DNA of 64,000 bases from contig NZ_CP114783.1 of NCBI RefSeq assembly GCF_027359595.1, forward strand, positions 1,426,001 to 1,490,000, in the 5' to 3' direction. Below, in pieces: positions 7,704 to 19,333 of this stretch (positions within the stretch are counted from its first letter, which is position 1; every line of letters begins with the position of its first letter). Both the position numbers and the translations under genes were made by a program. The notes under the pieces were generated by a model. That model was not told the origin of the DNA, made no database searches, and saw only the letters and a list, made by a program, of their open reading frames with translations. The stretch comes from Prochlorococcus marinus str. MIT 0912 (GTDB taxonomy: Bacteria; Cyanobacteriota; Cyanobacteriia; PCC-6307; Cyanobiaceae).

Positions 7704-7811
7704 ATGAATTCTAGTGCTGAACGTTTTAACGGTTTGATGGCGATGTTAGGCATCGTTGCAGGAATAGGTGCTTATGCAACAACCGGACAATTCATACCTG
7801 GAATTTTCTAA
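7704..7811 (+). CDS. hli: High-light-inducible protein, short form (35 aa)
   Basis: A 35-codon frame reads S-A-E-R-F-N-G-L-M-A-M-L-G-I-V-A-G, the chlorophyll-binding helix of Hli/Scp proteins (E-x-x-N-G-x-x-A-M-x-G), then G-A-Y-A-T-T-G-Q, ending in P-G-I-F. This is the very short Hli form seen in Prochlorococcus. It sits in thylakoids and is thought to bind chlorophyll and carotenoid and protect photosystems. A run of T and A stands just upstream of the start. A strong hairpin downstream (7825-7870) ends the transcript. Confidence 0.9.
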   Translation: MNSSAERFNGLMAMLGIVAGIGAYATTGQFIPGIF

Positions 7812-8075: not shown

Positions 8076-8350
8076 GTGAGTAATGTTAGGAGTAATGTTT
8101 TAGCGATATTTCGTTCTTAACGTGAAATAAAGGGTATATTCTACTTCTTTTGTTTATTTTTGCTAGATAGGTCTTCTTAGATTTGGAAAATTTTTTTGCT
8201 TTTCTCTTCTTAGTAAGATTGGCTGTAATCTTCTTCTTGAAAACATTGACTCTCTAAAACAAGCAGAATCAAATCTGTAATTTTTTGAAATTTGTTACTT
8301 ATATGACCGACATAGATTATTTTTTGAGTATTGTTTATTTATGTTTATCT

Positions 8351-8364
8351 AAGGAGGTGATCCA
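8351..8364 (+). promoter_or_regulatory. Extended Shine-Dalgarno, 14-base complement of the 16S rRNA 3' end
   Basis: The 14 bases AAGGAGGTGATCCA are the reverse complement of the conserved bacterial 16S 3' terminus (TGGATCACCTCCTT). GGAGG ends 7 bases before the TTG start at 8365, the ideal spacing. Most genes in this window have no clear Shine-Dalgarno, so this one is exceptional. Confidence 0.75.
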
Positions 8365-8466
8365 TTGTCGCATCTACCAATCAGTCAAGAGTCAGTGGAA
8401 ATTAAAAAACCTTTTGGTTCCGTTACTCCTGCCTTGAAGGGTTTTATTATTAATAGATTTATATAG
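8365..8466 (+). CDS. Small protein, 33 aa, TTG start behind an extreme Shine-Dalgarno
   Basis: The frame begins with TTG directly after a 14-base perfect anti-16S match and ends in TAG at 8464-8466. A strong intrinsic terminator follows within 20 bases, so this is a compact one-gene transcript. The peptide runs from SHLPISQESVEIKKPFG to a hydrophobic, basic end (L-K-G-F-I-I-N-R-F-I). The second half could be an amphipathic membrane-seeking helix. No family is recognised. Start signal, frame and terminator together make it likely real. A regulatory (leader or sponge) role of the transcript is an alternative. Confidence 0.6.
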   Translation: MSHLPISQESVEIKKPFGSVTPALKGFIINRFI

Positions 8467-8481
8467 TTACCTTTATCTATT

Positions 8482-8521
8482 AAAAAAAAGATCAGCTACT
8501 TTTTAGCTGGTCTTTTTTTTT
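8482..8521 (+). terminator. Intrinsic terminator
   Basis: The stem GATCAGCTA / TAGCTGGTC (one G-U pair) has loop CTTTT, a preceding A run and a following tract of eight or more T. It ends the short transcript carrying the 33-aa gene. Confidence 0.85.
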
Positions 8522-8642: not shown

Positions 8643-8801
8643 ATGTCTAATGAAGAAAAAATTGAAATCGCAGAAAGAAGGATAATTGAGTTGAAAACTT
8701 TAATTAATCATTGGAAAACAAGTCATATTTCATCCAGAAGATCTACTGTAGATTTTGTTGAAGCAATCCTTGCTGATAGACAGGAGACTAAGGCAGCTTA
8801 A
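8643..8801 (+). CDS. Hypothetical protein, 52 aa
   Basis: ATG at 8643 to TAA at 8799-8801. The product is a highly charged helical peptide (E-E-K-I-E-I-A-E-R-R-I-I-E-L-K), then H-W-K-T-S-H-I-S-S-R-R-S and a C-terminal A-I-L-A-D-R-Q-E-T. It is likely a small soluble coiled-coil or helical-hairpin protein. Unrecognised; the composition strongly resembles coding sequence. Confidence 0.55.
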   Translation: MSNEEKIEIAERRIIELKTLINHWKTSHISSRRSTVDFVEAILADRQETKAA

Positions 8802-18959: not shown

Positions 18960-19045
18960 TCCAAGACTCAAGGCATACCAAATAAAAAGGACGCCTTCCA
19001 GCGTCCATGGATCAATTGGGTAATAAGGCTGACCTAACCCCATCT
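18960..19045. repeat. tmRNA 3' end repeat (copy A)
   Basis: This is the partner of 17841-17926. It includes the tmRNA terminator and the 17-base core at 19009-19025. On the minus strand it forms the 3' end of the ssrA transcript. Confidence 0.8.
18980..19006 (-). terminator. tmRNA intrinsic terminator
   Basis: On the minus strand GGACGC-TGGAAG-GCGTCC is followed by TTTTTATTT. The stem is perfect and directly follows the coding piece of the tmRNA. Confidence 0.85.
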
Positions 19046-19255
19046 CCTAAAAGATCAAGCAGCAACAGGGGCTGTTTGACGGGAGAAACTAACGATGTTG
19101 TTAGCAGTTATGGTTTTGCTCTGACCGAGCAGGCTTCAGTCACTCGCCTGATACCCCGTCGAAGCCATTGCAGCCCCATTCATGGAGCTGAGCGGAATCG
19201 AACCGCTGTCCGAGATACTGGTGTGAATCACCTAGTCTGATAAACACAGACGAAC
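19007..19255 (-). ncRNA. ssrA: Two-piece (circularly permuted) transfer-messenger RNA
   Basis: On the minus strand the acceptor piece comes first: a T-arm like GCGGTTCGATTCCGC, then CAGCTCC and discriminator A at 19183, with CCA not encoded. Only five bases (19178-19182) separate it from the coding piece, which starts GGGGCTGCAATGGCTTCGAC at 19177, the tmRNA 5' signature. GGGGCTG pairs with CAGCTCC. The tag reading frame (19105 down to 19055) encodes ANNIVSFSRQTAPVAA and a TGA stop, close to other Prochlorococcus tags. tmRNA with SmpB rescues stalled ribosomes and marks the product for ClpXP. The outer limits of both pieces are approximate. Confidence 0.95.
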
Positions 19256-19333
19256 ATAGTCTGACAGATATTTTGGAATTAATCGATTAGTGTTGAAAGA
19301 ACCTTTTGATTGTTTTTTAGTAAAAAAAAGATA

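Follow-up and report, generated by a model that had tools for sequence, protein, structure and literature searches.

In Bacteroidota, Shine-Dalgarno helices of 9-13 bp let ribosomes that lack bS21 translate rpsU (PMC9976891). Among cyanobacterial RNAs, Yfr6 has a structured leader of ~97 nt before its frame and lies at 627,729-627,972 in MED4 (PMC1242208, PMC2864571), and Yfr103 is an abundant, strongly structured RNA of 290-328 nt, multicopy in Synechococcus and present also in NATL strains and SS120 (PMC5069720).

Shine-Dalgarno signals are weak in the 64-kb stretch of DNA analyzed here (the window), and Prochlorococcus reportedly has few regulators. Within this stretch lies a short element that, judged from its sequence, looks like a translation switch. 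On balance we favor reading it as a monocistronic micro-gene of small-genome Prochlorococcus, ~180 nt long, that would be under extended-Shine-Dalgarno control with a start site gated by a fold-back. We found no earlier description in the open literature; supplements or subscription papers could hold the element as an unnamed ORF.

Results

A long complement of the 16S tail adjoins a TTG start

The 14-mer AAGGAGGTGATCCA is present on the plus strand at 8351-8364 and adjoins a TTG start codon at 8365. The earlier note had described it as a perfect 14-base complement of the 16S 3' end, a claim that holds for its presence before the TTG but not for its length. The genome's own 16S ends in ...TGGATCACCTCCTAAC (the same end also written TGGATCACCTCCTAACAGG and ...GGCTGGATCACCTCCTAACAGGG), which A8351 mismatches, so that the match is 13 nt rather than 14, spanning GGAUCACCUCCU and the one U preceding it. 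Going by general 16S structure, the 16S stretch covered is presumably roughly the complete single-stranded 3' tail. The predicted duplex with this tail is about -25 kcal/mol here and -22 to -27 kcal/mol across homologues, and the complement is 12 nt in many relatives, since any of the four bases (A, C, T, G) can precede GGAGG.

The match exceeds chance: of the 41 ORFs of the window that begin with ATG and have at least 120 aa, none has a 16S match longer than 6 nt in the 22 nt before its start, where the element has 13 nt. The same note had judged the match very unlikely by chance, which this comparison supports, with the qualification that AAGGAGGTGATCCA has one second copy in the genome (L029 1501-1513; genome 1160313-1160325, minus strand), antisense inside a coding frame, so that mere presence of the 14-mer proves little and the case is carried by conservation. 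The frame antisense to this second copy resembles tsaE, and the copy is apparently there by chance.

Rfam at the gathering threshold finds no rRNA in the 64-kb window and the match stops at the 13-mer, on which grounds an inverted 16S fragment was rejected. We also discarded the idea that the conserved stretch downstream pairs further with the rRNA operon, since the single match is 9 nt long and lies past the 16S end. A permuted cyanobacterial tmRNA is recognized by Rfam at window 18990-19267 (minus strand).

Leader, frame and terminator

The 33-codon TTG frame followed by a terminator, as first noted from the sequence, is borne out (Table 1). At each of the nine positions of the terminator stem 22-26 of 26 sequences pair, and two-sided changes (AT/TA, CG/TA, AT/GC) occur among the 26 relatives. 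The peptide has no Pfam or NCBIfam match.

Table 1. Features of the element and their positions in the window
Feature	Position	Strand	Basis or remark
Upstream region, conserved in low-light-I relatives; putative promoter	8269..8342	+	BLAST, alignment
TATTGT, -10-like hexamer	8329-8334	+	putative promoter
5' leader of ~22 nt, candidate	8343..8364	+	conserved GTTTAT.TA(A/C) tract right after the -10-like box
13-nt 16S complement AGGAGGTGATCCA	8352..8364	+	own 16S sequence; ends directly at the start codon
Near-invariant 26-mer GGAGGTGATCCATTGTCG(C/T)ATCTACC	8353..8378	+	complement, start codon and first codons
33-codon frame, TTG start, TAG stop (8464-8466)	8365..8466	+	peptide MSHLPISQESVEIKKPFGSVTPALKGFIINRFI
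C-terminal KGFIINRFI motif and stop	8437..8466	+	protein-level constraint
Intrinsic terminator, 9-bp stem and T-run	8490..8521	+	covarying stem

In most relatives BLAST matches begin near query position 30. A consensus promoter scan found nothing. An imperfect direct repeat is present in the upstream region, with GTTACCtAAtTTACCGAC in most relatives. Its units are spaced 10 bp (window 8269-8320 and upstream of homologues) and read GTTACCnnnTTTACCGAC in low-light-I and GTTAAAAAACTTTTAAAT in high-light genomes; they may resemble RpaB/HLR1 sites.

Two neighboring ORFs lie on the plus strand. One of 52 codons (window 8643-8798, MSNEEKIEIAERRIIELKTL...) follows downstream, is kept in low-light-I genomes and falls, at cut-off, into no family of Pfam or NCBIfam. 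The other, a short ORF at window 7704-7811 (MNSSAERFNGLMAMLGIVAGIGAYATTGQFIPGIF), resembles by eye a high-light-inducible-type protein.

The element is widespread in Prochlorococcus

Of 60 relatives searched with a 301-base query, 26 matched, a count that includes the genome of the window itself; their alignment shows the conserved region upstream as well as complement, frame and terminator. The 26-mer GGAGGTGATCCATTGTCGTATCTACC, searched with up to 3 mismatches in 400 sampled Cyanobiaceae genomes, was found in 119 of them, in single copy each and in 14 of 59 genera (reversed control 0); the carriers are Prochlorococcus, both high- and low-light, and the 26-mer is absent from the Synechococcus-type genera within this sample. 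In the genome that we take to be MED4 the element lies at 661,996 onward, apart from Yfr6, and in the one that we take to be NATL2A its copy falls within 85,700-85,930.

Of 37 same-genus genomes, 24 have the shorter pattern of GGAGGTGATCCA plus ATG, GTG or TTG, in a single copy and at this locus alone (reversed control 0); outside Prochlorococcus the pattern is sporadic (14 places in about 213 genomes). The exact 12-mer with a start is missing in three of the 15 same-genus genomes with a completeness of 90% or more; one of the three (G002) has a one-base variant, which leaves two genomes without the element. A covariance model added one further clear copy, L211 (E = 5e-15), the only one that looked real among six lower-ranked matches inspected, the other added matches being weak. 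Neither the pattern nor the peptide has a match in viral contigs, and a phage origin was therefore rejected. Gene neighbors differ between clades, with a convergent neighbor in high-light strains, which indicates that the element moved or was exchanged.

What the earlier note had proposed, a small gene behind an exceptional 16S complement, agrees with this distribution: in most relatives both the complement and the frame are conserved.

Opposite constraints on the two ends of the frame

Among 78 distinct sequences, the 12-mer occurs in its common form and in three variants (GGGGG.., GATTCA, GATCTA), all of which pair with 16S via G-U. Independent changes being so few, the pattern suggests a constraint on 16S pairing and does not prove it. 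In codons 1-4 the minority changes number one at the third position, 31 at the first and five at the second, contrary to what a purely coding constraint would give, and the nonsynonymous changes H/Y, L/Q and S/L are seen. Over the final nine codons and the stop, the minority counts are 158 at third positions against 13 at positions 1 and 2; these are counts of sequences and not of independent events. The opposite codon-position patterns indicate nucleotide-level constraint, on RNA or DNA, in the start region and protein-level constraint at the end. The comparison of synonymous with nonsynonymous change, advised at the outset, favors a coding C-terminus, where change is mostly synonymous; the indels (+6, -3, -9 and +21 nt) are all codon multiples. 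One relative has a 6-nt insertion with the frame intact, and the frame is kept in 26 of 26 low-light-I homologues as well as in other clades.

In fused and separate forms alike the frame nearly always closes with TTT ATA TAG/TAA, and the final ATA is nearly invariant at the nucleotide level although neighboring isoleucine codons vary.

A small-protein gene of the ordinary kind, with a strong Shine-Dalgarno, additional pairing of no particular use and a start kept for strong initiation, would account for the clear C-terminal coding constraint and the codon-multiple indels, as well as for the 7-nt distance from GGAGG to TTG, which is usual. We nevertheless hold it to be unlikely: GATCCA is dispensable for a strong Shine-Dalgarno, yet it is conserved in high- and low-light strains with only G-U-preserving changes, and the third positions of TCG, YAT and CWA hardly vary.

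Fused, short and separate forms

The frame with its conserved C-terminus is kept in 74 of the 78 distinct sequences. This fused frame, ending in KGFIINRFI, has 33-35 codons in low-light (a few 30-32) and 40 codons in high-light strains, and brings to notice a conserved, unnamed micropeptide family. Five genomes retain the 16S-pairing start without this ending, in part the outcome that the earlier note had named as speaking against its reading, namely the complement conserved without the frame. In four of them (L115, L117, L131, L137) complement and start are followed by the stem CAGGAGTCAA/TTGRCTCCTG, in L137 without its first pair, and by T6, an apparent intrinsic terminator; the fifth, L211, is a degenerate copy with the complement kept, a weaker stem and a frame that stops after 18 codons. 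The marks of a protein-coding micro-gene are found for the C-terminal part of the fused form and not in the short forms.

A separate 26-codon gene, MLxxLxxQLSIxSLLKxKGFIINRFI, is present in L118, L122, L126 and L128, and the genome of L128 has it together with a short form elsewhere. These four ORFs end in TTTATATAG, with a different start and no extended Shine-Dalgarno, and a related longer ending occurs in L134. In a one-protein tree, poorly resolved at depth, three short forms are nested inside fused clades. The short form was not retained as ancestor of all, since short forms nest in fused clades several times and locus positions differ, so that the change may have run in either direction.

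The short forms, which keep complement, start and terminator stem without KGFIINRFI, the retention of complement and weaker stem in L211, and the nucleotide-level constraint on the first codons would all be expected of a ribosome-binding regulatory RNA whose 5' module withholds or reports free 30S, the frame being secondary and the peptide gained or lost later. We consider this doubtful, as nearly all distinct sequences keep the frame and its C-terminus, the start codon is invariant, and a real decoy would have to be very abundant. Comparably improbable, in our judgment, is a ribosome-sensing dual-function RNA, whose 5' module would monitor or hold 30S with a free 16S tail through a 12-13 bp helix set against the fold-back; in most lineages that module would be joined to a micropeptide whose output reports the state of 30S. 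A leader-peptide attenuator of the next gene, which the same-strand 52-codon ORF downstream in low-light-I genomes might suggest, is very improbable, given the strong terminator between frame and next ORF, the clade-specific neighbors (convergent in high-light strains) and the absence of a conserved downstream gene.

A possible fold-back of the start region

Two alternative short stems could hide the Shine-Dalgarno, their partners (..AUCUACC / GUCGY) lying just inside the frame. Pairing is kept in 116 of 120 and 89 of 90 cells of 15 distinct sequences (97-99%, versus at most 75% in slid controls), with weak covariation support because most pairs never vary; the 16S-pairing region overlaps the fold-back, so that constraint on either could pass for constraint on the other. 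When the longer RNA is folded from single sequences, some members do only modestly better than shuffles and others no better.

Discussion

The favored reading, an extended-Shine-Dalgarno micro-gene, would work as follows. An independent transcript of about 180 nt with a short leader would be made in a genome whose other genes have weak or no Shine-Dalgarno. The extended Shine-Dalgarno of the leader would pair with the entire single-stranded 16S 3' tail over 12-13 bp, up to the TTG, and the fold-back would keep the start site closed until it is invaded by a 30S subunit whose 16S tail is accessible. Such subunits would then selectively make the micropeptide (33-40 aa, with KGFIINRFI at its C-terminus), or its output would scale with the number of free subunits, and its synthesis would depend on free or specialized 30S. 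The "extreme translation" envisaged in the earlier note is not shown, as the start region can self-fold and a very long Shine-Dalgarno helix does not necessarily increase output; past some 9 bp, pairing may impede initiation instead of promoting it. The note's other idea, an RNA that titrates ribosomes, gains some ground from the five genomes with the complement but not the peptide ending, and may apply.

Comparison with known systems

Like Yfr6 and the Downstream-peptide motif (PMC1242208, PMC2864571), the element is a putative short Prochlorococcus transcript with a 33-codon frame; the Downstream-peptide covariance model does not hit the window at gathering score, nor six homologous loci at up to E = 1. 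Yfr103, 290-328 nt long and strongly structured, has several copies in Synechococcus, whereas the Synechococcus-type genomes sampled lack the present element. Yfr6, Yfr13, Yfr103 and Yfr8-21 do not fit in position, length or distribution, and Yfr28 lies between ftsQ and ftsZ, an exclusion of named Yfr RNAs that does not extend to Yfr106-108. The element coincides with none of the named Yfr RNAs for which PMC2518516 and PMC1242208 give MED4 positions. With RNAIII and SgrS (PMC2518516) it shares the possible combination of an RNA module and a small peptide, the sole RNA target proposed here being 16S.

The cyanobacterial rpsU leaders inspected show no general link of rpsU itself to such pairing. 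This genome's rpsU lies elsewhere and has no extended Shine-Dalgarno, and 29 of 30 cyanobacterial rpsU leaders, chosen regardless of Shine-Dalgarno and including that of this genome, have 3-7 nt. The rpsU of L288, a distant cyanobacterium (minus strand, near 1503), has the 12-nt GGAGGTGATCCA directly before its ATG and entered the set through the 12-mer pattern itself; a general link to rpsU was rejected on these grounds.

The nearest likeness is to rpsU of Bacteroidota (PMC9976891), in which likewise a single gene has 9-13 bp of 16S pairing while most other genes have a weak Shine-Dalgarno or none; at this locus too the pairing falls in that range and well beyond that of other genes (13 versus at most 6 nt in the 41 window ORFs). 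The present element differs in being cyanobacterial, in its possible start-region fold-back and in its product, a micropeptide that is neither bS21 nor a platform protein hiding the 16S tail. It resembles Bacteroidota rpsU in anatomy and is not a member of that class, and as a near-universal gene that would read the whole 16S tail it may offer a simple natural test of long Shine-Dalgarno switches outside Bacteroidota.
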